A DNA stretch of 64,000 nucleotides from Actinomadura pelletieri DSM 43383 (lineage in GTDB: Bacteria; Actinomycetota; Actinomycetes; Streptosporangiales; Streptosporangiaceae), in assembly GCF_003634705.1 (NCBI RefSeq), contig NZ_RBWU01000004.1:682001-746000 (forward strand), given 5' to 3'. Positions 33,597 through 52,841 of the stretch are shown in pieces. Within the stretch, counting starts at the first letter, position 1, and each line of letters opens with the position of its first letter. The notes under the pieces were generated by a model that was given only the letters and a program-made list of their open reading frames with translations, was not told the DNA's origin and did no database searches. Both the position numbers and the translations under genes were made by a program.

Positions 33597-35442
<1,846 letters not shown>

Positions 35443-35596
35443 TCCGTCGTTCCCGTCGGGCCTTCCGGCCGGGTGCGCGGGCCGGCGGCGGAGTTACCGC
35501 AGGGTGCGGGCTACTATCGAGGGACCGTTCCAAAAGCCGCGGATCCCACGGATCGCCGCAGGCCCGCTGCCCGGCCGGGAAGGACCGACAACTCAG

Positions 35597-36184: not shown

Positions 36185-36207
36185 CACGGGCTGGAACGCC
36201 ACCCGGG

Positions 36208-37044
36208 TCAGTCGGTCTCGGGGACGGGCAGGATCCGGCGTGGGCCGCGCGGCGCGTCGGCCCGTCTGCGCCATTCGCGCGGGTAACCGACCGACACCTC
36301 GATGTGGGGAACGTCACCGGTCCAGATCGTCCGGGGAATGTGCAGGTGCCCGTAGACGACGGACACGGCGTTGAAGCGGCTGTGCCAGTCGGCGGTTCGG
36401 ACCGTTCCGCACCACTGGGCGAACTCCGGATACCACAGGACGCGGGTGGGTTCGCGGACGAGCGGCCAGTGGTTGATCAGTACCGTCCGCGTGCCCGGCT
36501 CCAGGGCCGCGAGCCGCTTCTCGGTGTAGGCGATCCGGGCGTCGCACCAGGCGTCGCGCGTGGGATGCGGGTCCGGGTGCAGGTAGACCTCGTCGGTGCA
36601 CACCACGCCCGCCTCGTGCGCGACCTTCAGGGCCTCTTCCTTGGTGAACGTCCCGTCCGGCCGGAACGTGTAGTCGTACAGCAGGAACAGCGGCGCGATC
36701 GTCACGGGACCGTTCTCGCCGTTCCAGACCGGATACGGGTCCTCGGGCGTCAGCACTCCGAGGCGCCGGCACATCTCGACGAGCGCCCGGTAGCGGGCCT
36801 CACCGCGCGCCTGCACCGGATCGTTCTTCACGGTCCACAGCTCGTGGTTGCCCGGCGTCCAGATCACGGTGGCGTAGCGCTCGGCGAGCGTGCGGAGCGT
36901 CCATTCGACGTCGGACAGTTGCTCGGCGACGTCTCCGGCCACGATCAACCAGTCGTCGCCCGACTCGGGCCGCAGGCCCTCGACGAACGCGCGGTTCTCG
37001 GGGAAGCCGACATGCAGATCGCTGATCGCGTGGACATCGCCCAT
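36208..37044 (-). CDS. Calcineurin-like metallophosphoesterase
   Basis: The 278-residue protein shows the metal-binding motifs in order: AISDLHVGF (D-x-H), VAGDVAE (GD), WTPGNHELW (GNH), LINHWPLV and YGHLH. It should coordinate two divalent metals and hydrolyse a phosphomonoester or diester; the substrate is unknown. Many actinomycetes carry this version next to phosphopantetheinyl transferases, but none is seen here. The ATG start at 37044 gives MGDVHAISD. It lies 29 bases after the ArsR-type regulator gene on the same strand. Confidence 0.88.
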   Translation of the reverse strand: MGDVHAISDLHVGFPENRAFVEGLRPESGDDWLIVAGDVAEQLSDVEWTLRTLAERYATVIWTPGNHELWTVKNDPVQARGEARYRALVEMCRRLGVLTPEDPYPVWNGENGPVTIAPLFLLYDYTFRPDGTFTKEEALKVAHEAGVVCTDEVYLHPDPHPTRDAWCDARIAYTEKRLAALEPGTRTVLINHWPLVREPTRVLWYPEFAQWCGTVRTADWHSRFNAVSVVYGHLHIPRTIWTGDVPHIEVSVGYPREWRRRADAPRGPRRILPVPETD

Positions 37045-37073
37045 CCAATGATCGTAAGCCCCATGACGGCGGC

Positions 37074-37688
37074 TCACTCCCCCTCGTCCGGCCGAACGTC
37101 CGGCCGAACGTCGGGCCGGTCGTCCGGACCGTCGGCGGGGAGCGTGAAGAGGCGGATGTGCACGGGTCGGGCTCCGGGGGGCGCGTCCTCGCGGCTGTGG
37201 GCGTGCTCGTGCAGGAGCCGGATGTACGCCTCGTAGAACGACGCGAGGCCCTCCTCGGTCATGTGGGCGAAGCCGCGCGACAGCCGCGCCCAGGCTCGGT
37301 CACGCTCGTACTCGGCGGGCAGCGCGCGGAACAGTTCCATGTCCTCGGCGTGCGCGACGCGGATCAGCTCGTCGAGAACGGCCCGGTCCTCGGGGGCCAC
37401 GGTCTCCGGGGCGGGCAGCCGCAGGTCGCGCGGGGTGTCGGCCGGGCGCCACCAGCGTTCCCTGCCGGTGGACCGCTCCGGGATCTCCTCGATGAACCCG
37501 TACTTCTCCAACTGCCGGAGGTGGTAGCTGGTCGTCCCGGTGTTGGCGCCCACCACCTCGCCGATCGTGGTGGACGTCGCCGGACCGTGCGTGCGCAGCC
37601 GGTGCAGGATCCTGCGGCGAAGCGGATGGCTCAGCGCCTTGATCCTGCCCGGGTCGTCGAGGATCACCGGCTCGGTGTCGTCCTTCAT
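37074..37688 (-). CDS. ArsR-type winged-helix regulator
   Basis: The 204-residue protein begins with a winged helix, DPGRIKALSHPLRRRILHRLRTHG, then NTGTTSYHLRQLEKYGFIEEI (recognition region). Its C-terminal half is helical (EDRAVLDELIRVAHAEDMELFRALPAEYERDRAW), a type often found in actinobacterial 'helix-turn-helix domain' regulators. The C-terminus is a repetitive Asp-Val-Arg-Pro stretch encoded by imperfect 11-12-base repeats. The sequence before the ATG lacks a Shine-Dalgarno site. It is divergent from a hydrolase gene across CAGAGA-type palindromes. Confidence 0.85.
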   Translation of the reverse strand: MKDDTEPVILDDPGRIKALSHPLRRRILHRLRTHGPATSTTIGEVVGANTGTTSYHLRQLEKYGFIEEIPERSTGRERWWRPADTPRDLRLPAPETVAPEDRAVLDELIRVAHAEDMELFRALPAEYERDRAWARLSRGFAHMTEEGLASFYEAYIRLLHEHAHSREDAPPGARPVHIRLFTLPADGPDDRPDVRPDVRPDEGE

Positions 37689-37715
37689 GAGGAGCAGTCT
37701 AGTACTACAGACGTA

Positions 37716-37749
37716 TCTTTGCAGAGTTTTCTTTGCAGAGAGTTCTCTG
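37716..37749. promoter_or_regulatory. Operator region between ArsR-type regulator and hydrolase
   Basis: TCTTTGCAGAG is repeated directly at 37716-37726 and 37730-37740. A palindrome CAGAGA-GT-TCTCTG spans 37736-37749. The A/T-rich stretch stands out in this GC-rich region and probably holds both divergent promoters and the regulator's binding site. Confidence 0.65.
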
Positions 37750-37767
37750 TGGTTTACGGTGCTCGGC

Positions 37768-39204
37768 ATGAAGACAGCGATGACATTCGCGCTGGCACTG
37801 GTCGCCGGCGTCCTGTTGGGCACGTCCTGGTTCACGCCGGCCGTCGCCTCCGACCGGATCCCGGCGCCGTCCGGCCTGACCTCCACCGATGTGAGCTTCC
37901 AGGGGTTCGGCGGGCTCACCCTGCACGGCACGGTCCTGGCCCCGGCACGGGCCCGCGGGCCCGTGCCGGGGGTGGTGCTCGTCACCGGGTCCGGCGCCGG
38001 GGTGCCGCGCGAGCACCTGCTCACCGAGGCCACCCAGTTCGCGCGGCGGGGCCTCGCCGTCCTGATCTACGACAAGCGCTCCGAGGGGTACACGGACCTG
38101 CGCCGCTCCTTCTCCGAGCTCGCCGACGACGCGCTCGGGGCCGTCGGCGCGCTACGCGCCCGGCCCGGCGTCGATCCGGCCAAGGTGGGCGTGTGGGGGC
38201 TCAGCGAGGGCGGCTGGGTGGCGCCGTTGGCCGCGTCGCGGTCCACGGACGTCGCATTCGTGATCGTGGTCGGCGGCAACGCCATGTCCCCGATCCGGCA
38301 GCAGGTCTGGAACGAGACCTTCGGGCTCCGCCGGGCGGGCGTGTCCGGGTCGCTGCTCGACCACGCGAAGCGCAACTTCGCGCGGCTCGGCGCGGACGCG
38401 GGCCTGTTCGCCGAGGCGTTCTTCGACGCCGAGGGCGTGCTGGAGCGCGTCCGGCAGCCACTGCTCGGCGTCTGGGGCGAACGCGACCTGCAGACCCCAC
38501 CGGCGGACAACCCGCCGCTGTTCGCGCGGGCGCTGCGCCGCGGCGGCAACACCCACTACACGTTCCGCTTCTTCCCGGGTGCCGACCACGGCGCGCACGT
38601 GTCCCCCGACGGGGGGCTGACCCGTGGCGAGGCGCTGGCTCCGGGGTACGCCGACCTGGTCGGCTCGTGGGTCCGCGACGTGACGAGCGGACGGCTGCCC
38701 GACGCCGACGCGGCGGCGCCTCCGGCCCAGGACCATCCGAGCGCGGAGGTCTCGCCCTCGCCGTGGTGGGCGTCGGGCTGGTCGCAGCTCGCGGCGTTGG
38801 CATTGTTCGTCGTCGCGTTCACCGCGTATCCCCTGACCGCCCTGGTGCGGCGGCTCCGCGGACGGACCGTACGCCCGGTGAGCCGCTGGGCCCGACTGCT
38901 CGCCGGGGCGGGTCTCGCGGCCGTGCTCGGCGGTATCGTCTACGTCTTCTACCTGATGGCCGCCGGACGGTGGCCGGACCCGGGTCCCGTCCTGGCGGGC
39001 CGGCCGCTGCCCTGGCTTGTGCTGCAGGGGCTCGCCGTGGCCGCCGTCGCCGCCACGGTCGCGACCGTGGCGGCGTGGTGGAGGACCTGGCGAGGGACGG
39101 GCGCGGCCGTCCCGGCGGGCGAACGCGTCCGGACCGGGCTGCTGCTCACCGGCGGCGTGGTGTTCGTTCCGTGGGCGGTCTACTGGGGTCTGCTCGTCCC
39201 GTGA
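37768..39204 (+). CDS. Alpha/beta hydrolase with signal sequence and C-terminal membrane domain
   Basis: The protein of about 478 residues has an N-terminal secretion signal (MTFALALVAGVLLGTSWF...AVA) and an alpha/beta hydrolase domain: VVLVTGSGAGV for the oxyanion loop, GLSEGGW for the nucleophile, GERDLQTPP for the acid and PGADHGAH for the catalytic His. The last 130 residues hold three or so membrane helices. It should therefore face outside the cell, anchored in the membrane. The substrate is unknown. ATG 37768 is chosen because an upstream start would overlap the ArsR-type gene. Confidence 0.8.
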   Translation: MKTAMTFALALVAGVLLGTSWFTPAVASDRIPAPSGLTSTDVSFQGFGGLTLHGTVLAPARARGPVPGVVLVTGSGAGVPREHLLTEATQFARRGLAVLIYDKRSEGYTDLRRSFSELADDALGAVGALRARPGVDPAKVGVWGLSEGGWVAPLAASRSTDVAFVIVVGGNAMSPIRQQVWNETFGLRRAGVSGSLLDHAKRNFARLGADAGLFAEAFFDAEGVLERVRQPLLGVWGERDLQTPPADNPPLFARALRRGGNTHYTFRFFPGADHGAHVSPDGGLTRGEALAPGYADLVGSWVRDVTSGRLPDADAAAPPAQDHPSAEVSPSPWWASGWSQLAALALFVVAFTAYPLTALVRRLRGRTVRPVSRWARLLAGAGLAAVLGGIVYVFYLMAAGRWPDPGPVLAGRPLPWLVLQGLAVAAVAATVATVAAWWRTWRGTGAAVPAGERVRTGLLLTGGVVFVPWAVYWGLLVP

Positions 39205-39215
39205 CCCCGTGCCGG

Positions 39216-39716
39216 TCAGTCCCTTCCCCACAGGTACACGCCGACGCTCATGGCGAGGAGGCTCGCCCAACCGAAGACGGCGCGGACGGTGTTCCAGGCG
39301 GTCCAGCGGCCGGAGTAGTCCGACCAGACCCTCGCCGCCTCGGACGGGTCCGTCGGGATCGTGACGGCGTCCAGGTCGTTGTTCATCGGGATGTTCACCG
39401 CGAAGCTCGGGACCAGCGCGCCCACGAAGTACACGGCCGCGGCGACGAAGAACAGGATCGCCGCCGACCTGTGGTCCAGCGTCAGCAGCAGGACCCCGGC
39501 CGCGACGGCCAGCAGCGGGACGAGCAGGAACATCGCCACGAACACCGGGTTCTGGATCTTCTGGTTGACGCTCTGCATCGCGTCGATCGCCGACGCGGGC
39601 CGGGCCGCGTTCAGGCCGGGCATCACTCCGGTGGAGAAGCCGAAGAACGTCCCGGCCATCCCGGCCGCCATGATCAGGGAGAGCGTCACCGAGACGCCCG
39701 CGAGAGCGGATCTCAT
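39216..39716 (-). CDS. DUF1772 (anthrone-oxygenase-like) membrane protein
   Basis: The 166-residue protein has four membrane helices: LSLIMAAGMAGTFFGFS, FVAMFLLVPLLAVAAG, ILFFVAAAVYFVGAL and VFGWASLLAMSVGVYL. The pattern MPGLNAARPASAIDAMQSVNQKIQNP...VNIPMNNDL is typical of DUF1772. Fungal relatives are anthrone oxygenases; the bacterial role is unknown. It follows the NmrA-type gene by 29 bases on the same strand, so the two form an operon. ATG 39716 has AAGGAA upstream. Confidence 0.88.
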   Translation of the reverse strand: MRSALAGVSVTLSLIMAAGMAGTFFGFSTGVMPGLNAARPASAIDAMQSVNQKIQNPVFVAMFLLVPLLAVAAGVLLLTLDHRSAAILFFVAAAVYFVGALVPSFAVNIPMNNDLDAVTIPTDPSEAARVWSDYSGRWTAWNTVRAVFGWASLLAMSVGVYLWGRD

Positions 39717-39745
39717 GGTCGAGATTCCTTCCGTGGAGAGGTGTG

Positions 39746-40597
39746 TCAGACGGTCCAGATGCCGCTGGCCGCGGTCTGCCGGGCGTAGTCGGCGAAGTCC
39801 TTCGGGGCACGGCCGAGGGCGCGCCGGACGCCGTCGGCCGGGCGGGCGTTGCGGCCGTCGAGGACGGTGCCGAACAGGTGCGCGAGGAAGGCGACGAGGT
39901 CTTCGGGGAGGCCGAGTCTCCTGAGTTCGGCCGCGTAGTCGTCCAGGGGGACGCGGACGAACGCCACGTCCCGTCCGGCGGCGCGGCCGATCTCGGCGAC
40001 GGCCTCGGCGAAGGTGAGCGCGCGGGGGCCGGTCACCTCGTAGACCTCGCCCTCGTGGCCGTCGCGGGTGAGCGCGGCGACGGCCACGTCGGCGATGTCG
40101 TCGGCGTCCACGAACGGCTCCGGCACGTCGCCCGCAGGGAGGACGACCTGCCCGGCGCGGACGGGGTCCAGAAGGTAGTCCTCGCTGAAGTTCTGCGCGA
40201 ACCAGCTCGCCCGCACGACCGTCCACGCCAGGCCGGACGCCTGGACGATCCGCTCGCACTCCCCCGCCTCGTCCTCGCCCCGTCCCGACAGCAGGACCAC
40301 GTGCCGGACCCCCGCGTCCACGGCCGCGGCCGTGAACGAGCGGACGGCCTCCCGCGCGCCCGGCGCGGCCAGGTCGGGGTAGTACGACAGGTACACCTTC
40401 TCGACGTCTCGCAGGACGGGCGCCCAGGTCGCCTCGTCCTCCCAGTCGAAGCGCGGGGACGCCGACCGCGAGCCCATGCGGACCGCGACGTCCAGGGCCT
40501 CCAGCCGCTCGACCACGCGGCGGCCGGTCTTGCCGGTCCCGCCGAGGACGAGGGTGAGGCCGGTCTCGTTGGGGTTCTGCGTCTCGTTCGTCGTCAT
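39746..40597 (-). CDS. NmrA-like NAD(P)H-binding oxidoreductase
   Basis: The 283-residue protein has an N-terminal Rossmann motif LVLGGTGKTGRRVVERL, a region GVRHVVLLSGRGEDEAG, and FAQNFSEDYLLDPVRAG, all as in the NmrA/azoreductase-like atypical SDR group. It lacks a clear Tyr-x3-Lys pair and may be a redox sensor or a quinone/nitro reductase. It pairs with DUF1772 in an operon and is divergent from an AraC-type regulator, an arrangement common in actinomycetes; the AraC regulator probably controls the pair. Confidence 0.88.
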   Translation of the reverse strand: MTTNETQNPNETGLTLVLGGTGKTGRRVVERLEALDVAVRMGSRSASPRFDWEDEATWAPVLRDVEKVYLSYYPDLAAPGAREAVRSFTAAAVDAGVRHVVLLSGRGEDEAGECERIVQASGLAWTVVRASWFAQNFSEDYLLDPVRAGQVVLPAGDVPEPFVDADDIADVAVAALTRDGHEGEVYEVTGPRALTFAEAVAEIGRAAGRDVAFVRVPLDDYAAELRRLGLPEDLVAFLAHLFGTVLDGRNARPADGVRRALGRAPKDFADYARQTAASGIWTV

Positions 40598-40678
40598 GCC
40601 CTCAAGTCAACAGAGGCGCGGCTCCAGCGACCATCGTTGAGAAGCTCGCCCGCATACGTGAGCGTCTACGCTGGTCGC

Positions 40679-41617
40679 ATGGACGCGCTCACCGATCTGC
40701 TGGACGGCCCGCGGGCCCGGGGAGCGTTCATGATCCGCTCGACGCTGGCCCCGCCATGGGCGATCCGGATCCAGGACGAGGCGCCGCTGACGCTGCTGTC
40801 CATGGTCCGCGACGACGCGTGGCTGCTGCCCGACGGCGGCGAGCCGGAGCGCGTCTCCCCCGGCGACATGGTGATCTTCCGGGGGCCGGATCCGTACACG
40901 GTCGCCGACGACCCGGCGACCGAGCCGCAGATCGTCATCCACCCCGGGCAGCGCTGCACCACCCCGGACGGGACGAGCCTGTCGGAGGCGATGGACCTCG
41001 GGGTGCGCGCCTGGGGCGACGACCCGGACGGCTCGACGGTCATGCTGATCGGCGCCTACCAGATGCGCGGCGCCGTCACCCGGCGGCTGCTGTCCGCGCT
41101 GCCGCCGATCGCGATCGTGCGCGGCGACACCTTCAAGTCACCGCTCGTCGACGTGCTCGGCGAGGAGATCGGCAAGGACGAGCCGGGGCAGGACGTCGTC
41201 CTCGACCGGCTGCTCGACCTGCTGCTCATCGCGACGCTGCGCGCCTGGTTCTCCCGCCCGGACGCGGGGGCGCCCGGCTGGTACCGCGCGCACGGCGACG
41301 CCGTCGTCGGGCCCGCGCTCCGGCTCCTGCACGACGACCTGGCGCACCCGTGGACGGTCGCCGACCTGGCGTCCGCGGTGGGCGTGTCCCGCGCGGCGCT
41401 GGCCCAGCGGTTCACGAAACTGATCGGCGAGCCGCCCATGGCGTACCTGACCGGCATCCGGCTCGCGCAGGCCGCGGACCTGCTACGGGAGAGCGACGCG
41501 ACGCTGGAGACGGTGGCGCGGCGCGTCGGCTACGGCAACGGGTTCGCGCTCAGCACCGCGTTCAAGCGCGAGCACGGCGTCAGCCCCCAGGAGTACCGCG
41601 CGGGCCCGACCGGCTGA
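40679..41617 (+). CDS. AraC-family regulator with cupin domain
   Basis: About 312 residues. An N-terminal cupin domain is present (APPWAIRIQDEAPLTLLSMVRDDAWLL, GDMVIFRGPDPYTV). The C-terminal part has two AraC helix-turn-helix motifs: WTVADLASAVGVSRAALAQRFTKLIGEPPMAYLTGIRL and LETVARRVGYGNGFALSTAFKREHGVSPQEYR. It probably senses a small molecule and controls the divergent NmrA/DUF1772 operon. ATG 40679 lacks a good Shine-Dalgarno site; GTG 40658 in frame is an alternative start. Confidence 0.9.
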   Translation: MDALTDLLDGPRARGAFMIRSTLAPPWAIRIQDEAPLTLLSMVRDDAWLLPDGGEPERVSPGDMVIFRGPDPYTVADDPATEPQIVIHPGQRCTTPDGTSLSEAMDLGVRAWGDDPDGSTVMLIGAYQMRGAVTRRLLSALPPIAIVRGDTFKSPLVDVLGEEIGKDEPGQDVVLDRLLDLLLIATLRAWFSRPDAGAPGWYRAHGDAVVGPALRLLHDDLAHPWTVADLASAVGVSRAALAQRFTKLIGEPPMAYLTGIRLAQAADLLRESDATLETVARRVGYGNGFALSTAFKREHGVSPQEYRAGPTG

Positions 41618-41622
41618 CCGGC

Positions 41623-41648
41623 CCGTCACAGCCGAACGGCTGTGACGG
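41623..41648. terminator. Bidirectional terminator between AraC and PfkB genes
   Basis: Perfect 11-base arms CCGTCACAGCC and GGCTGTGACGG enclose a GAAC loop, 6 bases after each convergent stop. No T-tract follows. Confidence 0.75.
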
Positions 41649-41653
41649 CCGCG

Positions 41654-42793
41654 CTACCGCTGCGGGCGGAGGGTGGGTTCCGCGCGGACGACGACCGTGT
41701 CGTCGGCGGCGTCCGGGATGAACGGGATCACGAACGCGTAGTCGGCGAGCACCGACTCGGGCACCTCGCCGGACTCGCCGAACGCGGCGATCTCGCCCCA
41801 GCAGGGGGAGCCGAGGGAGCCGCTGCGATGCCGCACCGACAGCCCGGCGCACAGGTTGGCGAACCGCAACCGCTCGCCGAGCGGGAGACCGGCGAGGGTG
41901 GCGAACACGAACCCGGCGGCGAACACGTCGCCCGCCCCGGTCGGATCGAGGGCCTCGACGGGCAGCGCGCCGACCTCGGTCCGCTCCCCCGTCGTGGAGT
42001 CGACGGCGATGGCGCCGTCCCCGCCGCACTTCACGACCACCACCGGCACCCGTTCGGCGAGGGCCTCGGCGGCGCCCGCCGGGGTGCTCGTGCGCGTGTA
42101 CGCCATCGCCTCGGCGGCGTTGGGGAGGAACACGTCCACGTGCTCCAGCCGGTCGAGGACCTGGGCGGGCCAGGCGCCGGTCTGGTCCCAGCCGAGGTCG
42201 CCGAAGACGAGCGTGCCACGCTCGCGCAGGGCGGGCGCCCACGCCGGCACCGGACGGTCGACGTCGACGAAGCAGGCCCGCGCGGACGGCGTCGCCACCG
42301 GCGGACCGTCCACCGGGGTCGGGACGGGCCGCTCGTAGGTCACCATGCTGCGGTCGGAGTCGTAGGCCAGCGACACCGTCACCGGCGTGGACCAGCCGGG
42401 CACCCGCCGGGACGGTCCGAGGTCGACGCCCTCCTGCTCGGCGAGGGTGCGCCACAGGTAGGAGCCGAACAGGTCGTCGCCGAACTCGGCGGCGAGCCCG
42501 ACCCGCAACCCGAGCCTGCTCATCGCGACGGCGATGTTGGCGACGCCGCCGGGAGCCGAGCCGAGCCCGTCGGTGACGATCTCGGTGCCGGGCGGCGGCA
42601 GCCCCGGCAGCCCCGTGAAGATCATGTCCATGAACACCCGGCCGGACAGGAACACGTCCAGGTCCGCCGGCGGACCGGGCCCCGCGCCGTGCAGCCGCCG
42701 CCCCGCCGGTTCCCGCTCGGCACACGGATCGGCGAAGGACGGCTCGGGCGTCGATCCCGGGCCGGTGGCCCGCCGGGTCACTTGTTGCGTCAC
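41654..42793 (-). CDS. PfkB-family carbohydrate kinase
   Basis: About 379 residues. After a Pro/Gly/Arg-rich leader of 45 residues comes a ribokinase-like fold with SGRVFMDMIFTGL, the substrate region GGVANIAVAMSRLG and the ATP/anion-hole motif DPTGAGDVFAAGFVFA, where the second Asp is the catalytic base. It phosphorylates a sugar or sugar phosphate; members include FruK, LacC and ribokinase, and specificity is unknown. The GTG at 42793 has AGGGGGG upstream. It is divergent from the GntR-PTS operon across a shared operator, so it is probably part of the same pathway. Confidence 0.88.
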   Translation of the reverse strand: MTQQVTRRATGPGSTPEPSFADPCAEREPAGRRLHGAGPGPPADLDVFLSGRVFMDMIFTGLPGLPPPGTEIVTDGLGSAPGGVANIAVAMSRLGLRVGLAAEFGDDLFGSYLWRTLAEQEGVDLGPSRRVPGWSTPVTVSLAYDSDRSMVTYERPVPTPVDGPPVATPSARACFVDVDRPVPAWAPALRERGTLVFGDLGWDQTGAWPAQVLDRLEHVDVFLPNAAEAMAYTRTSTPAGAAEALAERVPVVVVKCGGDGAIAVDSTTGERTEVGALPVEALDPTGAGDVFAAGFVFATLAGLPLGERLRFANLCAGLSVRHRSGSLGSPCWGEIAAFGESGEVPESVLADYAFVIPFIPDAADDTVVVRAEPTLRPQR

Positions 42794-42870
42794 TGCGCCC
42801 CCCTGAGCACGGTGTGGCACGTTCCCACGGAACCTAGTCGACACCTCCGACATTCAGCTCGACATCCACA

Positions 42871-42886
42871 AGTGGTATTGACCAGT
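42871..42886. promoter_or_regulatory. DasR/GntR-like operator AGTGGTATTGACCAGT
   Basis: The 16-base near-palindrome has arms AGTGGT and ACCAGT with one mismatch. It closely resembles the DasR-responsive element of streptomycetes (AGTGGTCTAGACCACT, from memory). It lies between the PfkB kinase and the GntR regulator, so it could control both directions. Confidence 0.75.
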
Positions 42887-42945
42887 CAACATATTAGGAC
42901 ATACGGTGTGTCGCGATAGGAACCACAACAAAGGGGGTGAGCGGC

Positions 42946-43674
42946 GTGACATCCGCCGGTGAGTCCCGCTCCGGGAACACGAAACGGCAGGCGGTACGTC
43001 GCGAGCTCCTCACGATGCTGGACGGCCTGGACGTGGGGGACGCCCTGCCGTCAGAGCGCAGGCTGGCCGAGGAACTCGGCGTGTCGCGGCCCACGCTGCG
43101 GCAGGCCATCGACGGTCTCGTCGCCGAGGGACTGCTCGACCGGCGGCACGGGAGCGGCACCTACGTGGCCGAACCCCGCATCGCCGTCTCACTGACCATG
43201 ACCTCGTTCACCGAGGACATGATCAGACGCGGGATGAAGCCGGGTGGTCGGGTCCTGTCGTTCCGCACGCAAGCCGCGGGGGCGCGGATCGGCAGGCGGC
43301 TGGCGCTGTCGCCTCTCGAAGAGGTATTTACCATTCGGCGGCTACGGCTGGCGGACGGCGCCAGCATGGCCATCGAGACGCTCTACCTTCCCCGGGCGCT
43401 GCTGCCCGACCTGCGCCGGCAGGACCTGGAGGAAGGATCGTTCTACGAACTGCTGCGCGGCAACGGCGTCGAGATCGCCTCGGGCACGGAGACGATCGAG
43501 CCGACCGTCACCACCGCCGAGGAGGCCGCCGACCTCGGCGTCCCCGTGCACATGCCGGCGTTCCTGTTCGAACGGATCACCAGGGATCCCGACGGGCGGC
43601 CCCTCGAATACGTCAGGTCGCTCTACCGCGGCGACCGGTACCGCCTGGAGCTCGACCTGCGACCACCGCGCTGA
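42946..43674 (+). CDS. GntR/HutC-family regulator (DasR/NagR-like)
   Basis: The protein of about 242 residues has an N-terminal GntR winged helix ([46 protein letters not shown]) and a UTRA ligand domain ([25 protein letters not shown], then [18 protein letters not shown]). UTRA regulators bind sugar phosphates or similar; DasR/NagR bind glucosamine-6-phosphate. It is first in an operon with a PTS, and a dre-like operator lies 60 bases upstream, so auto-control by an amino-sugar phosphate is a fair guess. GTG 42946 has AAAGGGGG at a proper distance. Confidence 0.92.
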
Positions 43675-43722
43675 CGGGGCCCGCGGGCGCACCACACATC
43701 CCGGAAGTGAGGCCACTTCTCC

Positions 43723-45174
43723 ATGGACGTCATCAAGGACATCCTCACCTTCCTGGCCGACAACGTGTTCGGTCAGGTGCCCATCCTGATCGGGCTCATC
43801 ACGCTGCTCGGCCTGATGTTGCAGCGCAAGCGGTTCGAGGACGTGTTCGCCGGCGCGCTGCGCGCCACGATCGGCGTGGTCATCCTGTTCATCGGCGTGG
43901 AGGTGTTCACCGGCGGGCTGACGAGCTTCCAGACCGTCCTCGCCAGCGCGATGGGCACGACGCCGCCGAAGGCGGACCGGACCCTCGCCGACTTCCTCGC
44001 CGACCAGGGCGGGACGATCGCCCTGGTCATCACCGTCGCGTTCCTCCTCCACGTGCTGGTCGTCCGGCTGTTCCCGGCGGCCCGTTACCTGTACCTGACC
44101 GGGCACCTGATGTTCTGGGTCAGCACGGTCACCGTCGCGTCCCTGGTGACGATCGCGCCGGGCGCCGACCAGCTCACGCTCGTGCTGTGCGGGGCCGGGT
44201 TCGTCGCCGCCTACTGGACCGTCCAGCCGCTGTGGATGCGGCCGCTGATGCGCCGCGTCATGCCGGACGACCGGTTCGGATTCGCGCACACCAGCTCGCT
44301 CGCCTGCCTGCTCACCGGGTACGCGGCGCGCCCGCTGGGCAGCCGGGAGAAGCACGACACCGAGAAGCTGAAGCTGCCGCGCCAGCTGTCGTTCTTCAAG
44401 GACGTCAACGTCAGCACCGCGCTGATCATCTCCGCGATCATGCTGGTGGGCGTCGCGCTCGCCGACGACTCCGTGGTCGGCAAGGCCGCGACGGAGATGG
44501 ACCCCAAGCTGTCGCCCTGGGTGTGGGCGCTGCTGGTCGGCCTGCGGTTCGCGGGCGGCATCGCGATCCTGCTGTTCGGGGTGCGGATGTTCCTCGGCGA
44601 GATCGTCCCGGCGTTCAAGGGGTTCAGCGACAAGGTCATCCCGGGCACACGACCCGCGCTGGACGCGCCGACCGTGTTCCCCGTCGCGCCGACCGCCGTC
44701 ATGGTCGGGTTCGTGGCGTCCACCGGCGTGTTCCTCGTCTGCCTCGGCGTGTTCGCCGGGGCGGGCTGGTTCACCCTCGCCCCGCCCATGATCATGCTGT
44801 TCTTCGTGGGCGGCGCCGCCGGACTGTTCGGCAACGTCGTGGCGGGCTGGCGCGGCGCCGTCCTCGGCGGCGTGATCACCGGCCTGGTCCTCGCCGTCGG
44901 GCAGGCCCTCACCTGGGACCTGTTCGACCGGACCGCGCCCGAGCTGGCCACGCTCGCCGACCCGGACTGGTACGCGATCGCGTGGCTGCTGAAGGCGGTC
45001 GACCCGGTCGTCGGCGACGCCACGGTCTGGATCGTTCCGATCGTCGCGCTCGCCGCCATGGTCGCGACGCTGCTGCTGCTCGGCCGCGCCGAGAGGCACC
45101 GCGCCGCGACCGAGGCGGCACAAGACGACCGGCCGGACGACCGGCCCGACGACAAGGCCACCGCGAAGGCGTGA
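43723..45174 (+). CDS. PTS EIIC, ascorbate (UlaA/SgaT) family
   Basis: The 483-residue protein has about ten membrane helices. It starts LTFLADNVFGQVPILIGLITLLGLMLQRK and has TGHLMFWVSTVTVASLV and GFAHTSSLACLLTGY, as in UlaA-type EIIC. It should move a sugar into the cell while EIIB-P phosphorylates it. The C-terminus is an Asp/Arg repeat tail. It is followed by IIB and IIA with overlapping or close starts, so one operon. EI and HPr are not local. Despite the family name the substrate need not be ascorbate. Confidence 0.92.
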   Translation: MDVIKDILTFLADNVFGQVPILIGLITLLGLMLQRKRFEDVFAGALRATIGVVILFIGVEVFTGGLTSFQTVLASAMGTTPPKADRTLADFLADQGGTIALVITVAFLLHVLVVRLFPAARYLYLTGHLMFWVSTVTVASLVTIAPGADQLTLVLCGAGFVAAYWTVQPLWMRPLMRRVMPDDRFGFAHTSSLACLLTGYAARPLGSREKHDTEKLKLPRQLSFFKDVNVSTALIISAIMLVGVALADDSVVGKAATEMDPKLSPWVWALLVGLRFAGGIAILLFGVRMFLGEIVPAFKGFSDKVIPGTRPALDAPTVFPVAPTAVMVGFVASTGVFLVCLGVFAGAGWFTLAPPMIMLFFVGGAAGLFGNVVAGWRGAVLGGVITGLVLAVGQALTWDLFDRTAPELATLADPDWYAIAWLLKAVDPVVGDATVWIVPIVALAAMVATLLLLGRAERHRAATEAAQDDRPDDRPDDKATAKA

Positions 45175-45203
45175 CCGTCAGCACGAAACAGGGAGGGACC
45201 GAC

Positions 45204-45506
45204 ATGGCACTGGACCGGCAACTGGAGGTGCTCGCGGTCTGCGGCGTCGGCATGGGGACCAGCCTGATGCTCAAGATGACCGCCGAGGACGCGCTCCGCT
45301 CGATCGGCGTGGAGGCGCGCGTGGAGAACACCGACCTGTCCACGGCGCGCGGGATGTCGCCCGACGTGGTGATCGGCCAGGGCATGCACACCGGCGAGAT
45401 CGCCGACCTCGCACCCGTGGTGATCACGATCAGCGACTTCCTCGACAAGGACGGCCTGGAGGCGCAACTCCGAGAGCACCTGACGACCCAGGGCTGGCTC
45501 CCATGA
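45204..45506 (+). CDS. PTS EIIB, lactose/ascorbate type
   Basis: The 100-residue protein is a PTS_IIB domain with the phospho-cysteine loop LAVCGVGMGTSLMLKM and a following Rossmann-like pattern ending DFLDKDGLEAQL. It accepts phosphate on Cys from EIIA and passes it to the sugar. ATG 45204 with GGGAGGG upstream is preferred over an in-frame GTG at 45171 that would overlap the EIIC stop. Its stop overlaps the EIIA start by 4 bases. Confidence 0.92.
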   Translation: MALDRQLEVLAVCGVGMGTSLMLKMTAEDALRSIGVEARVENTDLSTARGMSPDVVIGQGMHTGEIADLAPVVITISDFLDKDGLEAQLREHLTTQGWLP

Positions 45507-45985
45507 CCTCTCATTCTGAGGGGACGACCCCCCGGGCCCCGCGGCAACGACCCTTGGTCACCGCGACCGGCCATGTGACCGCCGCGGACTGGCGCGAGGC
45601 GGCGCGGAAGGCGGCCGAGGCACTGGTCGACGCGGGCGCGGCGGGCACGGGATACCCGGACGCCTGCGTCCGGGTGGTCGAGGAGAACGGCCCGTACATC
45701 GTGTTGACCAAGGGGCTCGCGCTCGTCCACGCCCGTCCCGAGGAGGGCGGGCTGGCCGTGGGCGTCGGCGTGACCCGGCTGGCCGAGCCCGTCGCGTTCG
45801 GCCACCCCGACAACGACCCGGTGGACCTGCTGCTCGCGTTCTGCACACCCGACCCCGACGCGCACGTCGGCACGCTCGCGGGGCTCGCGCGCGCCCTGAG
45901 CGGCGGTCTGGCCGACCGGCTCCGCGCCGCGTCCGACGAGGACGAACTGGCCGAGGCACTGAGGGAGGCCGTGCCCCATGACTGA
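45503..45985 (+). CDS. PTS EIIA, mannitol/fructose (UlaC-like) type
   Basis: The 160-residue protein is an EIIA type-2 domain. NGPYIVLTKGLALVHARPEEGGLAVGV holds the phospho-accepting His in VHAR, as in UlaC. The first 15 residues are a Pro/Arg-rich tail not typical of the family. It receives phosphate from HPr and hands it to EIIB. The start ATG overlaps the EIIB stop (ATGA) and the stop overlaps the SIS gene start, so translation is coupled through the whole set. Confidence 0.9.
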   Translation: MTSHSEGTTPRAPRQRPLVTATGHVTAADWREAARKAAEALVDAGAAGTGYPDACVRVVEENGPYIVLTKGLALVHARPEEGGLAVGVGVTRLAEPVAFGHPDNDPVDLLLAFCTPDPDAHVGTLAGLARALSGGLADRLRAASDEDELAEALREAVPHD

Positions 45986-46769
45986 GACCCGGCCTTCCGA
46001 GGCCCGGCCCGGGGCCCGGTCGGGGCTCCCCGACCGGGTGCGGGCCCTGCTGGACGATCTGGACGCCGCCGCCGGCGAGGCGATCGGCGAGGCCGCCGCG
46101 CTGCTGCTGGCCTCGGTCGAGGCCGGCGGGATCGTCCACGTCGCCGGCGCGGGGCATTCGCTGGCGATGGTGTGCGAGACGTTCTACCGGGCGGGCGGGC
46201 TCGCCGCGGTCCGTCCGATCTGGGATCCCGCCGTGTTCCCGCTCGGCGACGCCGTGGCCAGCACCCGCGCCGAGCGGCGGGCCGGGGTGGGACGTGCCGT
46301 GGTCGAGGCGGCGGCACCCGTCCCGCCCGACGTCGCGGTCGTGTTCTCCACCAGCGGACGCAACCCGTACCCGGTCGAGATCGCCGCCGAGTGCGCGGCG
46401 CGCGGCGTCCCCGTCGTCGCGGTGACCTCGGCGCGGGCGTCGCGGGCCGCCACGGCGCGGACCGCGACGACCCTGGCCGACCACGCCGCGGTCGTGGTGG
46501 ACACCCGCGTTCCGCGCGGCGACGTCGTGCATCCGGCGGCGGCGCCGCGCACCGCCGCGGTCTCCACGATCCTCGCCGCGTACGCGTGGTCGCGCGTCCT
46601 GGCCGACCTGGACGACCTCGCGGCGGAGCGCGGTGTCGAACCGGCCCGCTGGACGAGCGCGAACGTCCCCGGCGGCGACGAGGTCAACGCCGCGCTGCTC
46701 GAGCGTTACCGGCACCGCGTGCCCGAGCTGACCGGGGACGGGCCGTCGCCCTTCCGCCCTGTGACATGA
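45978..46769 (+). CDS. SIS-domain phosphosugar isomerase-like protein (COG4821 type)
   Basis: The 263-residue protein is a single SIS domain, with GIVHVAGAGHSLAMVCETFYRAGG at the sugar-phosphate-binding site, VVFSTSGRNPYPVEIA for the phosphate loop, and AVTSARASR. This fits predicted phosphosugar isomerases of the UPF0309/COG4821 group, of unknown substrate. As the last enzyme of the PTS operon it probably acts on the imported phosphosugar, for example ketose/aldose isomerisation, before the divergent PfkB kinase adds a second phosphate. That order is inference from context. Confidence 0.88.
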   Translation: MTETRPSEARPGARSGLPDRVRALLDDLDAAAGEAIGEAAALLLASVEAGGIVHVAGAGHSLAMVCETFYRAGGLAAVRPIWDPAVFPLGDAVASTRAERRAGVGRAVVEAAAPVPPDVAVVFSTSGRNPYPVEIAAECAARGVPVVAVTSARASRAATARTATTLADHAAVVVDTRVPRGDVVHPAAAPRTAAVSTILAAYAWSRVLADLDDLAAERGVEPARWTSANVPGGDEVNAALLERYRHRVPELTGDGPSPFRPVT

Positions 46770-46801
46770 TGCGGTCACGTCGGAGCGGAACGAGGAGCGA
46801 G

Positions 46802-47038
46802 ATGACGACCAGACCGACCGGGGACGACCTGCACACCGTGTTCACGCGCGCGGACCTGGGCGGCGACCAACGGCTCGACCTGATGGAGTTCACGCTCGTC
46901 CTGGAGGACCTCGGGCTCTCCTGGACGCGCGCCGAGACGCAGGACAGGTTCGAGAAGGCCGACAGCAACCTCGACGGGTTCATCTCCTACGAGGAGTTCC
47001 GCGCCGTCATGGACGCCCAGTACAGCCCCGGCAACTAG
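46802..47038 (+). CDS. Small EF-hand calcium-binding protein
   Basis: The 78-residue protein has two EF-hand loops. The second, DSNLDGFISYEE, is canonical (ligand positions 1, 3, 5, 9 and 12, with Gly at 6). The first, DLGGDQRLDLME, has Asp at 1, 5 and 9 and Glu at 12 but lacks the usual Gly at 6. It resembles actinobacterial calerythrin/CabC-like proteins and is likely a cytosolic Ca2+ buffer or sensor. GAGGAG precedes the ATG. It follows the PTS operon by 32 bases and may be cotranscribed, though a functional link is not evident. Confidence 0.88.
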   Translation: MTTRPTGDDLHTVFTRADLGGDQRLDLMEFTLVLEDLGLSWTRAETQDRFEKADSNLDGFISYEEFRAVMDAQYSPGN

Positions 47039-47047
47039 ACCCGGCGA

Positions 47048-48679
47048 CTAGACCCGGCGCCCGCGCAGTTCCCGGTACCGGCGGACGAGCGCCGCCGTGG
47101 ACGGGTCGGGCGCCGTGGACGGCGGCTCCGGCGCGGTGAGCGCGGGCGCGAGGTCCATGGCCATGATCTTGCCGAGCTCGACGCCCCACTGGTCGAAGGA
47201 GTCGATCCCCCAGATCGTCCCCTCCACGAACACGATGTGCTCGTAGAGCGCGACCAGCGACCCGAGGGTCTTCGGGGTGAGCTTCGGCACCAGGATCGTG
47301 CTGGTCGGCCGGTTGCCCGGCATGACCTTGTGCGGGACGAGGGCGGCGGGCGTCCCCTCGGCGGCGACCTCCTCGGCGGTCCGGCCGAACGCCAGCGCCG
47401 ACGTCTGCGCCAGCATGTTGGCGGCGAGCAGGTCGTGCATGCCCGCGCGGTCCTCGAACGGCTCGGCGAACCCGATGAAGTCGGCGGGAACGAGCCGGGT
47501 GCCCTGGTGCAGCAGCTGGTAGAAGGCGTGCTGCCCGTTCGTGCCCGGCTCGCCCCAGAAGATCGCGCCGGTCTGCGCGACGACGGGCGCGCCGTCGGCC
47601 CGCACCGACTTGCCGTTGGACTCCATCGTGAGCTGCTGCAGGTAGGCGGGGAACCGGGCGAGGCGCTGGCTGTAGGGCAGCACGGCCCGGGTCTGCGCGC
47701 CGAAGAAGTCGGTGTACCAGACGCCGAGCAGTCCCATCAGGACGGGCATGTTCTGCTCGAACGGCGCGGTCCGGAAGTGCTCGTCGATCTCGCGGAACCC
47801 GGCGAGCATCTCGCGGAACGCCTCCCCGCCGATCGCGATCATCAGGGAGAGGCCGATGGCGCCGTCGAGGGAGTAGCGGCCGCCGACCCAGTCCCAGAAC
47901 GCGAACATGTTCGCGGTGTCGATGCCGAACTCGGCGACGCGGTCGGCGTTGGTGGACACGGCGACGAAGTGCCGGGAGACGGCCTTGTCGTCCCCGAGCC
48001 GCTCCACGAGCCACTGCCGCGCGACCTTGGCGTTGGTGAGGGTCTCCAGGGTCCCGAACGTCTTGGAGCTGACGACGAACAGGGTCCGCTCGGGGTCGAG
48101 CCCGGCGAGCTTCCCGACGATGTCGGCGGGGTCGATGTTGGACACGAACCGGCAGGCGATCCCGGCGTCCGCGTAGTCGGCGAGGGCCTCGTAGGCCATG
48201 GCGGGGCCGAGGTCGGAGCCGCCGATGCCGATGTTGACGACCGTGGTGATGCGTTTGCCGGTGAAGCCCGTCCACTCCCCCGCGCGGACGCGTCCGGCGA
48301 AGTCGGCCATCGCGTCCAGGACGGCGTGCACGTCGCCCGCGACGTCCTGCCCGTCCACGGTGAGGGCCTCGCCGGGCGGGAGCCGCAGCGCCGTGTGCAG
48401 GACGGCGCGGTCCTCGCTGACGTTGATGTGCTCGCCGGAGAACATCGCGTCGATCCGGCGGCGCAGCCCGGCCCGCTCGGCGAGCGCCACCAGCAGCCGC
48501 AGCGTCTCGGCGGTGGCGCGGTGCTTGGAGTAGTCCAGGTGGAGGTCCCCCGCGGTGACGGTCATACGGTCGGCGCGCGCCGGATCGTCGGCGAAGAGTT
48601 CGCGCAGGTGCCGACCGGCGAGCGCCGCGTGATGCTCTCCCAGCGCGGACCACTCGGGCGACTCGGTGATATCTGCCAT
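47048..48679 (-). CDS. pgi: Glucose-6-phosphate isomerase
   Basis: The protein of about 543 residues (family usual about 550) interconverts glucose-6-phosphate and fructose-6-phosphate in glycolysis. Family signatures are present: [32 protein letters not shown], the catalytic Glu in [14 protein letters not shown] with its His, and [16 protein letters not shown] with the catalytic Lys. It is long-form PGI, not the archaeal cupin type. Start choice is [10 protein letters not shown] at 48679; MREAMADI at 48691 is possible. It is divergent from the chimeric lipoprotein gene. Confidence 0.97.
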
Positions 48680-48906
48680 TGCCTCTCTCATCTCGTCGCG
48701 GGGCGGACGGCGCCGTCGTTCCCCGGACGGGCGACCGTACCCCACCGGCGATCATAGGACGGCCACGGACACCGCCGCGGGCGACCGAAAGGGCAAGCGG
48801 CGCTTACCGATCCGTCCACGAGATCGCATGCTCGCCGTCTCGACGACCGTGCGCCGACGTTTCACGCTTTCACCATCCCTCCCACGAGTGAACGCATGAG
48901 GCGCCG

Positions 48907-50748
48907 ATGAATCGATCGACCTCCCGGGACCGCGGACGCCGGTTCCGTCTCCTCACCGCGACCGGAGCCGGTTTACTGCTCGTTCCGCTCGCCGCGGCCT
49001 GCGGGTCCGGCGACTCCGGCGGTTCGGGCCCCATCAAGATCGGTGTCCCGGCGCCGCTGAGCGGCGACTCCGCCTCGGCCGGTCAGGACATCCTCGCCGC
49101 CGCCAGGGTCGCCGCCGCCGAGATCAACAAGGCGGGCGGGGTGGACGGCCGCGACATCGAGATCGTGGAGGCCGACGACCAGTGCAGCGCCCAGCAGGGG
49201 GCGCAGGCCGCGCAGAAGCTCCTCAACAGCGGGGTCGTGGCCGTCGCCGGCGGCTACTGCTCGGGCGCCGCGGTGCCCGCGATCCCGATCTACGGGCGGC
49301 GGAACGTGCCGTTCGTGCTGGACGCGTCCACGAACCCTTCCCTGACCGACACCGGGAAGGGCAAGGTCTTCCGCACCTGCGGACGCGACGACAACCAGGG
49401 CCTGGTCGCCGCCAAGTTCATGACCGGGCAGCTCAGGGCCAGGCGGATCGCGCTGCTGCACGACAACACCACGTACGCCAAGGGCCTCGCGGACGCGGCG
49501 GCGAACTCGGTGAAGCGGCTCGGCGGGCAGGTCGTGTACCAGGACGCGCTCCAACCCGGCCAGTCCGACTACAGCCCGGTCCTCACCAAGGTCGCCTCGA
49601 CGAAACCGGACGTGCTGTACTTCACCGGCTACTTCGCGGAGGCGGGGCTGCTGATGAAGCAGCGCAGGCAGCTCGGGTTGACGTTCACGCTGATGGGCGG
49701 GGACGCGACGACCGACTCGACCGTCCTGAAGACGGCGGGCTCGGCGGCCGACGGCTACATCGCCACCACCGCGCCGCTGGCCAAGGACCTGCCCGCCGCC
49801 GCCACGACCATGATCGAGGCCGCGCGGGCGGACGCGGCCGACGCCCCGCCCTGGTGGGTCGCCGAGATCACCGGCCATGACCGCCGCGCCGCCGACCTCG
49901 CGGTCCTCACGCTCACGCCCGAACGTCCGCTGCCGTTCCGGCCGGGCCAGCACGTGACCGTGCAGACGCCGCGCTGGCCCCGGGTCTGGCGCTCGTACTG
50001 GATCGCCAACGCGCCCCGCCCCGACGGGACGCTGTGTCTGCACGTCCGCGCCCGTCCCGCCGGCTGGGTGAGCGGCGCCCTGGTCCGGCACACCGCGCCC
50101 GGGGACTCCGTGCTGGTCGGCCCGGCCGCGGGCGCCATGCCCCTCGACCCGGACCCCGACCGCGGGCTGCTGCTCATCGGCGGCGGCACCGGCCTCGCCC
50201 CCATGAAGGCGCTCGCCGAACAGGCCGTGGCCACCGACCCGGACCGCGACGTCCACCTGATCGTCGGGGCCCGCACCGAGGCGGACCTGTACGACCTCGC
50301 GGATCTGCGCCTCCTGGAGTCGTCCGGCGCGCGTCTCCGGGTGGTTCCGGTCCCGTCGCGGTCGTCCGGCGCCTCGGCGGGCGAGTCCCAGGGGGGAGCG
50401 CCAGGTGAACCGCCGGGTGAATCGCGGGGTGAGTCGGTGGGTGATGCGAGGGGTGATGCGAGGGGGGAATGGCGCGGGCGGTTGCCCGACGTGTTGCCCG
50501 GCTTCCTGGACGGCGTCGACCGGTGGCGGGACCGCGCCGCCTACGTGGCGGGCCCTCCCCCGTTCGTCCGGGACACCGTCGACGCGCTGCACCGGCACGG
50601 GATGCCGCTCACCCAGGTCCACCACGACCCGCTCACCACGGAGGAGTCGGACGCCCGGGCCGTCACCAGCCCGCGCGCGCTCGTAGAAAGTCCGTCGTCG
50701 GCGCGTCGGCCGGATAGAACGACTCGATCGCCAGTTCCGCCACGGTGA
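48907..50748 (+). CDS. Chimera: truncated LivJ-type lipoprotein fused to flavohaemoglobin-like reductase domain
   Basis: The 613-residue frame joins two unrelated parts. Residues 1-298 are a branched-chain amino-acid-binding lipoprotein with signal and lipobox LAAACGSG, KIGVPAPLSGDSASAGQD, AEINKAGGVDGR and VLYFTGYFAEAG; it lacks the last 90-100 residues of the family. From about residue 300 (MIEAARADAADAPPWW) it matches the last helix of a globin followed by an FAD/NAD-binding reductase: FRPGQHVTVQT, RSYWIAN, IGGGTGLAPMKAL. The globin itself is absent. A 12-base repeat tract adds a Gly/Glu-rich insert at 492-525, and the end overlaps the next gene. No livFGHM genes are nearby. It is probably a deletion product and may be non-functional. 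Confidence 0.8.
   Translation: MNRSTSRDRGRRFRLLTATGAGLLLVPLAAACGSGDSGGSGPIKIGVPAPLSGDSASAGQDILAAARVAAAEINKAGGVDGRDIEIVEADDQCSAQQGAQAAQKLLNSGVVAVAGGYCSGAAVPAIPIYGRRNVPFVLDASTNPSLTDTGKGKVFRTCGRDDNQGLVAAKFMTGQLRARRIALLHDNTTYAKGLADAAANSVKRLGGQVVYQDALQPGQSDYSPVLTKVASTKPDVLYFTGYFAEAGLLMKQRRQLGLTFTLMGGDATTDSTVLKTAGSAADGYIATTAPLAKDLPAAATTMIEAARADAADAPPWWVAEITGHDRRAADLAVLTLTPERPLPFRPGQHVTVQTPRWPRVWRSYWIANAPRPDGTLCLHVRARPAGWVSGALVRHTAPGDSVLVGPAAGAMPLDPDPDRGLLLIGGGTGLAPMKALAEQAVATDPDRDVHLIVGARTEADLYDLADLRLLESSGARLRVVPVPSRSSGASAGESQGGAPGEPPGESRGESVGDARGDARGEWRGRLPDVLPGFLDGVDRWRDRAAYVAGPPPFVRDTVDALHRHGMPLTQVHHDPLTTEESDARAVTSPRALVESPSSARRPDRTTRSPVPPR
50400..50475. repeat. Degenerate 12-bp in-frame repeats
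   Basis: Units like GGTGAATCGCGG and GGTGATGCGAGG recur about six times in frame, encoding (Gly-Glu/Asp-x-x) within the NAD-binding part of the chimeric gene. It has the look of a slippage expansion. Confidence 0.7.
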
Positions 50749-51463
50749 TGTCGACCGGCGTGCCGAAGGTGGCGATGGTGCCGAAGAACGACAGCTCCCG
50801 CCCGTCCACCCGCATCCGCAGCGGGACGAACACCTCGTGCTCCGCGGGCGGTGCCATCGCCTCCCCCACGTCCCCGGGGAAGCTCCGCAGCTCCCGGTAG
50901 AGCTGGGCGAGCCCCGGGTCCGCGGTCAGCGCCACATGCCGCCGTACCCGGTCGATCATGTGGGCGCGCCACTCGGCCAGGTTCAGGATGTGCTTCGCCA
51001 TGCCGTCCGGGTGCATGCTGAGGCGCAGCACGTTCAGCGGAGGCTTCAGCAGCTCCGGCGCGGCGCCCTCCATGAAGAGCCCGGCCGCGGCGTTGGCGTC
51101 GATCAGGTTCCAGAAGCGGTCCACGACGACGGCCGGGTACGGCTCGTGCCCGTCCAGGACCTGTTTGATCGCCGCGCGCACCGCGTCCATCCTCGGCTCC
51201 TCGATCGGGGTCTCCGCGAACACCGGCGCGTACCCGGCCGCCACCAGCAGCAGGTTCCGGTCGCGCAGCGGGACGTCCAGGTGCTCGGCCAGCCGCAGCA
51301 CCATGTCCCGGCTCGGCGCCGACCGGCCCGTCTCGACGAAGCTCAGATGCCGCGTCGACACGCCCGCCTCAGACGCCAGCTCGAGCTGGCTGAGTCTGCG
51401 CCGCTGCCGCCACGCGCGCAGCTGCTCCCCGATCGGTTTCACATCGCTCAACGCCGTCGTCAC
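50663..51463 (-). CDS. XRE-family regulator with MmyB-like domain
   Basis: The protein of about 266 residues has an N-terminal XRE helix-turn-helix (GEQLRAWRQRRRLSQLELASEAGVSTRHLSFVETGRSAPSRDMV) and a C-terminal MmyB-like PAS-type ligand domain (AVVVDRFWNLIDANAAAGLFMEG ... FPGDVGEAMAPPAEHEVFVPLRMRVDGRELSFF...). In relatives such proteins bind fatty acids and often control an adjacent SDR or oxidoreductase. None is divergent here except a DUF1266 gene. Its 3' end overlaps the chimeric gene on the other strand by about 85 bases. GTG 51463 or GTG 51442 may be the start. Confidence 0.9.
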   Translation of the reverse strand: MTTALSDVKPIGEQLRAWRQRRRLSQLELASEAGVSTRHLSFVETGRSAPSRDMVLRLAEHLDVPLRDRNLLLVAAGYAPVFAETPIEEPRMDAVRAAIKQVLDGHEPYPAVVVDRFWNLIDANAAAGLFMEGAAPELLKPPLNVLRLSMHPDGMAKHILNLAEWRAHMIDRVRRHVALTADPGLAQLYRELRSFPGDVGEAMAPPAEHEVFVPLRMRVDGRELSFFGTIATFGTPVDITVAELAIESFYPADAPTTDFLRARAGW

Positions 51464-51599
51464 CGCTCCGACGCTACTCGTGGCGTCATCGGGAGGGCGA
51501 TGACGTCGGAGGTAACGCCCCCGCCCTTTACATTGTAGATTTTTCGTTGGCGGGGTGGAGCCGGGTCCGGGGCCGGTACCGTTGCCCGCGGAGGGGACC

Positions 51600-52841
51600 A
51601 TGACGTATCAGGCCATGCTGGACCGGGCCAGGAAGTTCGAACGGCAGGGCAGGTTCGGGGAGGCCGCCGCCGCCTTCGCCGACGCCGCCGAGGCCATGGA
51701 GGCGCGCGGCGACGGGACGTCCGCCGTCGCGACCCGGGCGCGGTGCGCACGCGCGCTCGCCGCCGCGGGCCGCACCGGCGAGGCGCAGCGCATGCTCGAC
51801 ACGATCGACCGCATCGCCGCGTCCATGCCCGTCGAGGTCCGCGCGGGGCTCGACGCGCAGGCCGCGCACATCATGGCGGCCGCGGGCCGCACCGGTGAGG
51901 CGGCCCGGCGCGCCTGGTCGGCGATGAGCGGGTTCTGGTCGCTGCACGACACCAGGCGCGCCGACGCGGCCGGGGTCCACGCGGCACGCCTCATCGTCAA
52001 GGACGCGGGGCCGCGCGGCGCGCTGCTCCCCCTGCGGGAACTGCTGGCGCAGATGCCGCCGGGCGGTGACGGGCACCGGCAGGTCACCGCGCTGCTCGCC
52101 GACGCCGAACGGCGCCCCGACCGCGACCACGACATCCTGGTCACCGACCCCGACAGCGCCGCCTGGGGACGACTCGCGGCGGCGCTCGCCGTCGGCGCGC
52201 ACCTGGCCGTCGGCAACGGGGTCGCGTGGAACGTTCTCACCGACCCCGACGACGCGGCCGGCGATCGGGTCCTGCTGGAACGCGACTGGGGCGTCACCGA
52301 CCACGACGGCTGGCGCGAGCAGATCGACGCGCTGCTGGACGCCCGCAACAGCGACCCCGCCATCCAGATGGTCCTCGACCAGCGGGGCCGCCGAAGGGAC
52401 AAGCGGGCCTGGCAGGAGGCGATCGTCGAGTGGTGCCGGGAACGTGACATCCCGGACGGGACCGTCCGCGAGATCGTTGAGATGTCCGAGCTGATCCTGA
52501 AGTACGAGTCGCGGTTCCGGGCCGACGGGATCCTCCCGCCGGACGGCGTGGTCGAGAGCGTGTACGGCTACGACTTCGGCCGCGCGGTGAACATGGCCCG
52601 CTGGGGCCTCGGCGCCGGGTACTGCGACGCCGAGGAGGCCGAGAAGTGCGTCCTCACCGCCGGGCAGCGCGCCAACCAGGTCTACACGTCGTGGCGGTCG
52701 TTCTCCGCCGGCTACGTCCTCGGCCGGATGCTGCGGTTCGACGAGGGCGAGTTCGGCGAATGGTACGAACGGTCGCTGACCGGCCATCGCGTCCTCGCCG
52801 AGGACCCGGAGAGCCCCTGGCGCCGCATGGCCTGGGGCTGA
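51600..52841 (+). CDS. DUF1266 protein with TPR-like N-terminus
   Basis: The 413-residue protein begins with helical repeats (MLDRARKFERQGRFGEAAAAFADAAEAMEARGD). The C-terminal half has DUF1266 features: AWNVLTD...RVLLERDWGVTDHDGWREQIDALL and YDFGRAVNMARWGLGAGYCDAEEAEK. The family is found in enterobacteria (YbeU/YbeR) and actinomycetes; its role is unknown. ATG 51600 has GGAGGGG 4 bases before it. It is divergent from the XRE gene and convergent with adenosine deaminase. Confidence 0.85.
   Translation: MTYQAMLDRARKFERQGRFGEAAAAFADAAEAMEARGDGTSAVATRARCARALAAAGRTGEAQRMLDTIDRIAASMPVEVRAGLDAQAAHIMAAAGRTGEAARRAWSAMSGFWSLHDTRRADAAGVHAARLIVKDAGPRGALLPLRELLAQMPPGGDGHRQVTALLADAERRPDRDHDILVTDPDSAAWGRLAAALAVGAHLAVGNGVAWNVLTDPDDAAGDRVLLERDWGVTDHDGWREQIDALLDARNSDPAIQMVLDQRGRRRDKRAWQEAIVEWCRERDIPDGTVREIVEMSELILKYESRFRADGILPPDGVVESVYGYDFGRAVNMARWGLGAGYCDAEEAEKCVLTAGQRANQVYTSWRSFSAGYVLGRMLRFDEGEFGEWYERSLTGHRVLAEDPESPWRRMAWG

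Follow-up and report, generated by a model that had tools for sequence, protein, structure and literature searches.

The window, a 64,000-nucleotide stretch of DNA from Actinomadura pelletieri DSM 43383, carries on its plus strand one open reading frame (48907-50748, 613 aa) that runs without a stop codon across the junction between a LivJ-type lipoprotein gene and a reductase gene of the flavohaemoglobin type (Table 1). The frame comprises residues 1 to ~297 of the lipoprotein, followed by the end of a globin domain and a FAD/NAD module. The first-pass annotation had described a lipobox and about 300 LivJ residues leading in frame into a globin end and a reductase, and the Pfam matches bear this out: Peripla_BP_6 occupies residues 42-313 and is followed by FAD_binding_6 and NAD_binding_1, both over cut-off. 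The signal peptide and the lipoprotein cysteine (Cys32) were identified by eye, and the convergent ORF at the 3' end, also read by eye, resembles a regulator of the HTH type. Annotating the frame plainly as 'LivJ' or as 'reductase' would be wrong.

Table 1. Features of the fused frame and its surroundings (window coordinates)
Feature	Position	Strand	Remarks
Fused open frame	48907..50748	+	613 codons; reading frame kept through the junction
LivJ-type lipoprotein gene remnant	48907..49799	+	Residues 1 to ~297 of an original ~401; signal peptide and Cys residue 32 by eye
Junction, 6-bp microhomology CGCCGC	49794..49799	+	Common to both sister genes at the breakpoints
Globin-reductase gene remnant	49800..50748	+	Last globin-domain residues, FAD/NAD module, C-terminal tail
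FAD_binding_6	49915..50118	+	Residues 337-404, Pfam
NAD_binding_1, matched stretch	50173..50382	+	Residues 423-492, profile 1-72 of 109
Gly/Glu/Asp/Arg-rich insert	50371..50454	+	Residues 489-516; modelled with low confidence; the sister's intact gene has a version of it
3' overlap with convergent ORF 50663-51601 (-)	50663..50748	+	Same tail in the sister's intact gene
LivJ gene upstream region, kept	48746..48906	+	Almost identical in the sister

In the nearest genome (G029), which we infer to be Actinomadura spongiicola LHW52907, a species on which our literature search found nothing, the two parts are found as separate and intact genes. Both matches lie on the same contig (C29) and strand, at 112900-113859 (92%) and 166637-167605 (86%). 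The first belongs to a 401-aa Peripla_BP_6 protein that covers positions 2-341 of the 343-position profile, and the first 297 residues of the fused protein are 96% identical to it. The second belongs to a 428-aa protein, counted from a start codon of our choosing, that bears Globin (residues 27-129), FAD_binding_6 and NAD_binding_1 (profile 1-107). Since these sister proteins are complete at 401 and 428 aa, the LivJ part in the window lacks ~104 residues and the reductase part ~122, in agreement with the earlier remark that the LivJ C-terminus and the globin are missing. The binding domain of the fusion accordingly stops at profile position 271, as against 341 in the intact sister protein, and NAD_binding_1 is matched in part only. 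The Globin domain gives no Pfam match in the fused protein, which can be aligned with the sister globin-reductase through its last residue. Modelled from a 31-row alignment, the fused protein has a mean pLDDT of 68.4 and a pTM of 0.39; around the junction, at residues 283-303 and residues 308-314, pLDDT falls below 50.

Directly downstream of the sister livJ gene are a livH-type permease gene, a livM-livG permease-ATPase fusion and a livF-type ATPase gene. These genes adjoining livJ are deleted in the window. The sister thus has the two intact genes that the deletion reading of the first-pass annotation called for, and its breakpoints enclose the liv genes and the globin. As an observation in its own right, livM and livG of the sister form one 582-aa gene with permease and ATPase domains (L041:3029-4777, G029 C29:115029-116777).

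To map the breakpoints, we aligned the window and its flanks by BLASTN to 89 kb of the sister genome. Only two alignments of at least 300 bases were obtained, of about 18.9 kb and 17.5 kb, and on either side collinearity extends to the junction: positions 31031-49802 correspond to C29 95001-113795 (94.1%) and positions 49794-67198 to C29 166690-184000 (93.6%). At base level, the window tracks the sister LivJ gene to 49799 and the reductase gene from 49794, the six bases CGCCGC being common to both. The junction had been suspected to lie in a GCC-rich run with a possible microhomology, and can now be placed on these bases. The alignment coordinates put the lost stretch at 52,903 bases. Both sister genes share one strand, and the join falls at codon phase 2 in each of them as in the window, which keeps the fusion in frame. 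If the two sister genes are joined in every possible way, 0.48% of the joins have a microhomology of at least 6 bp; the shortness of the one observed is nevertheless a point against a deletion that left a passenger product. The window's own genome (G000) has one Ku gene, so end-joining is possible.

We searched the lost segment in three pieces against the whole of G000, covering sister positions 113795-166000 (52.2 of 52.9 kb), with 166001-166695 (0.7 kb) outside the search, and scored the best 40 of ~2000 first-look candidates in each search. Within this scope no orthologue-level match was found. The listed matches longer than ~300 bases have 65-72% identity (e.g. 66% over 1.4 kb and 70% over 0.9 kb), compared to ~94% in the flanks, and appear to be paralogues; those at 90-97% identity are all shorter than 50 bases, among the matches listed. 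Transposition of the missing segment to another place in G000 was rejected on the same result, the lack of an orthologue-level match in the 52.2 of 52.9 kb searched.

In the sister, the segment holds ~49 genes wholly inside it, a number that comes from a rough gene caller of our own, trained on few window genes. Nineteen of the 49 were compared with Pfam or NCBIfam, and their families include branched-chain amino-acid permease and ATPase genes, glycerol kinase, a MIP-family channel, cyanophycinase and cyanophycin synthetase, together with 4-hydroxybenzoate 3-monooxygenase, PcaD, PcaB, PcaG and PcaH. At the family level, glycerol kinase is matched in 64 of 65 Actinomadura genomes, G000 being the one exception, and the sister's only such match lies inside the lost segment (G029 C29:142404-143897). 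Protocatechuate dioxygenase beta, also encoded within the segment in the sister, is absent over cut-off from eight of the 65 genomes, G000 among them. Another globin-reductase and another Peripla_BP_6 protein are retained in G000.

These data also bear on an assembly artefact, in which the 53 kb is still present in the strain and the contig was misjoined at the GCC-rich run. The genome is a draft (15 contigs, 97.36% complete), the junction falls within a short GC-rich run, and the lack of the only glycerol kinase, unique in the genus, could hint at sequence missing from the assembly. However, a skipped 53 kb would be expected on other contigs, and the 52.2 kb searched is absent at the orthologue level; moreover, the join sits inside an 804-kb contig whose flanks are collinear for 17-19 kb on both sides. 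An artefact would need a false join on 6 bp, a repeat so short that an ordinary assembler would not be misled by it, plus the vanishing of 53 kb from the assembly. We therefore consider a misassembly very improbable.

The distribution of the junction was determined with a 401-bp query around it in 65 Actinomadura genomes, the counts being among the matches listed. The junction is spanned in one genome, G000 itself, and in none of the 64 others. The two halves are found as separate matches in 25 other genomes, on one contig in 12 and on different contigs in 13; the LivJ-half matches in these 25 are 86-95% identical over ~200 bases, and the remaining 39 genomes have no listed match to the LivJ half at that level with this query. 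In all 12 same-contig genomes LivJ lies upstream of the other half, both on one strand, at a distance of 53-119 kb. The interval between the LivJ and globin-reductase genes is a variable chromosomal region whose ends keep their order and strand.

In a search of 59 genomes, G000 included, the listed matches elsewhere stop no later than residue 326 or begin no earlier than residue 222, each lying on one side of the junction. In a scan of named genomes that perhaps left out G000, the matches at 69 loci do not extend past residue 320 or else begin at residue 286 or beyond, and none crosses. In a plasmid collection, a 301-base junction query found no record with 80% of the query and two that match parts of it. 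Conservation of the fusion in many species, which the first-pass annotation had named as the finding contrary to a deletion product, was not seen in any of the 64 other genus genomes. With these genomes and the 69 named loci all lacking the junction, an old, conserved two-domain protein has next to no probability.

An ancestral fusion that was split in the relatives by an insertion of at least 53 kb is just as improbable. The variation of the interval between 53 and 119 kb in the 12 relatives is in its favour, as it indicates that the region does gain and lose DNA. However, the separate genes of the relatives encode complete proteins, and an insertion would not account for the LivJ C-terminus and the globin N-terminus that these proteins have. 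An insertion in the relatives in place of a deletion in G000 was rejected on this ground, the separated parents being full-length proteins.

Two features had been taken as signs of relaxed selection: the insert rich in Gly and Glu, and the C-terminal tail that runs into the convergent gene. We could not sustain this reading, as both features are found in the sister's intact globin-reductase, and a similar tail is present in Actinomadura sp. KC06, A. chibensis and G002. Both features therefore predate the deletion and are uninformative on the time after it. Rates of change were compared for 297 codons of the LivJ half and for 304 codons of the reductase half, from which the first 12 next to the junction were dropped, leaving 238-292 compared after gaps. 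For the LivJ half, dN/dS is 0.158 between G000 and the sister and 0.149-0.252 against 11 other relatives, and private amino-acid changes are about equal (4-7 in G000 and 3-6 in the sister, by outgroup). For the reductase half, dN/dS is 0.375 between G000 and the sister and 0.376-0.457 against six others. The value for the LivJ half is within the range of the other pairs, and that for the reductase half is at the lower edge of its range. Private changes in the reductase half, as raw counts for G000 and the sister with six outgroups, are 11:7, 8:3, 9:10, 8:3, 7:8 and 7:7, G000 having more with three of the six, fewer with two and an equal number with one. Neither half shows a clear rise in rate, though the reductase half may be weakly accelerated. 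The deletion is therefore probably young compared to the split from the sister, or else the product is constrained, youth being the simpler option.

Low dN/dS and an open frame in both halves fit a recent event and fit selection on the product too. They are thus shared ground with the idea of a newborn functional gene encoding a membrane-anchored, exported flavin reductase with a gained role. The join is in frame and open throughout, the livJ upstream region is kept, and deletion-born chimeric proteins are known in Mycobacterium tuberculosis, as the available text of PMC7671302 describes. Set against this, an in-frame join has a chance of ~1/3, the fused form occurs in only one of 65 genomes, the binding domain is cut short and model confidence is low around the junction. 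FAD and NADH are cytoplasmic, and an exported reductase would be separated from both. A functional newborn gene, for which no finding speaks in particular, is, in our estimation, as improbable as a misassembly. Slightly less probable again is a very young chimeric gene in which a captured lipoprotein signal and promoter have re-routed the flavin reductase to the outer face of the membrane and which is already expressed and selected.

We postulate that a single deletion of ~52.9 kb fused the front of livJ to the back of the globin-reductase gene, and that the product is most likely a non-functional passenger; our probability for this reading is about 0.88. The deletion would extend from livJ codon ~297 to globin-reductase codon ~123, further along the same strand, and would have removed livH, livM-G, livF, glycerol kinase, pca and cyanophycin genes and some 40 others. 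Its ends would have been joined in frame at the GC-rich CGCCGC, presumably by end-joining at this 6-bp microhomology. The fused frame may be transcribed, since the livJ upstream region is kept, and transcription would then start from the old livJ promoter. The product, if made, would be an exported lipoprotein with an incomplete binding domain and a globin-less reductase module facing the exterior, separated from the NADH and FAD of the cytoplasm, and most likely it does nothing.

The proposal of the first-pass annotation that the chimera arose by recent deletion is supported: both parents are intact in the sister, the flanks are collinear, the segment has no orthologue-level match in G000 over the 52.2 kb searched, and the junction is unique among the 65 genomes. 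The locus offers a large deletion in one genome with its breakpoints at base level. The deletion also predicts testable losses, namely of growth on glycerol, of growth on 4-hydroxybenzoate or protocatechuate, and of cyanophycin storage.

Our literature search found no report of a flavohaemoglobin-LivJ fusion protein, and nothing on an Actinomadura flavohaemoglobin together with a substrate-binding protein. As judged from its sequence, the fusion is most likely a deletion-born gene fusion. Like the LivJ-type lipoproteins of the Peripla_BP_6 family, it has a signal peptide and a cysteine (by eye) and their first 297 residues; unlike them, it lacks the last ~104 residues and has lost the partner genes livH, livM-G and livF. 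With the flavohaemoglobin-type globin-reductases it shares FAD_binding_6 and NAD_binding_1 and an alignment to the end of the sister protein, whereas its globin domain is gone except for the last residues and what is left sits behind a signal peptide. For M. tuberculosis, the available text of PMC7671302 describes deletion-born chimeras at Rv0071/74 (RD105), Rv2623/28 and ppe38-71. The one at ppe38-71 is described as functional, one other fusion was seen by mass spectrometry, PCR and sequencing verified the Rv2623/28 breakpoints, and a fusion was shown to be expressed (PMC7671302). As far as these cases are described there, they resemble the present one in that a multigene deletion truncates two genes and merges them into a single frame downstream of the first gene's promoter; they differ in that the Actinomadura loss amounts to 52.9 kb and joins unrelated families, a lipoprotein and a globin-reductase.
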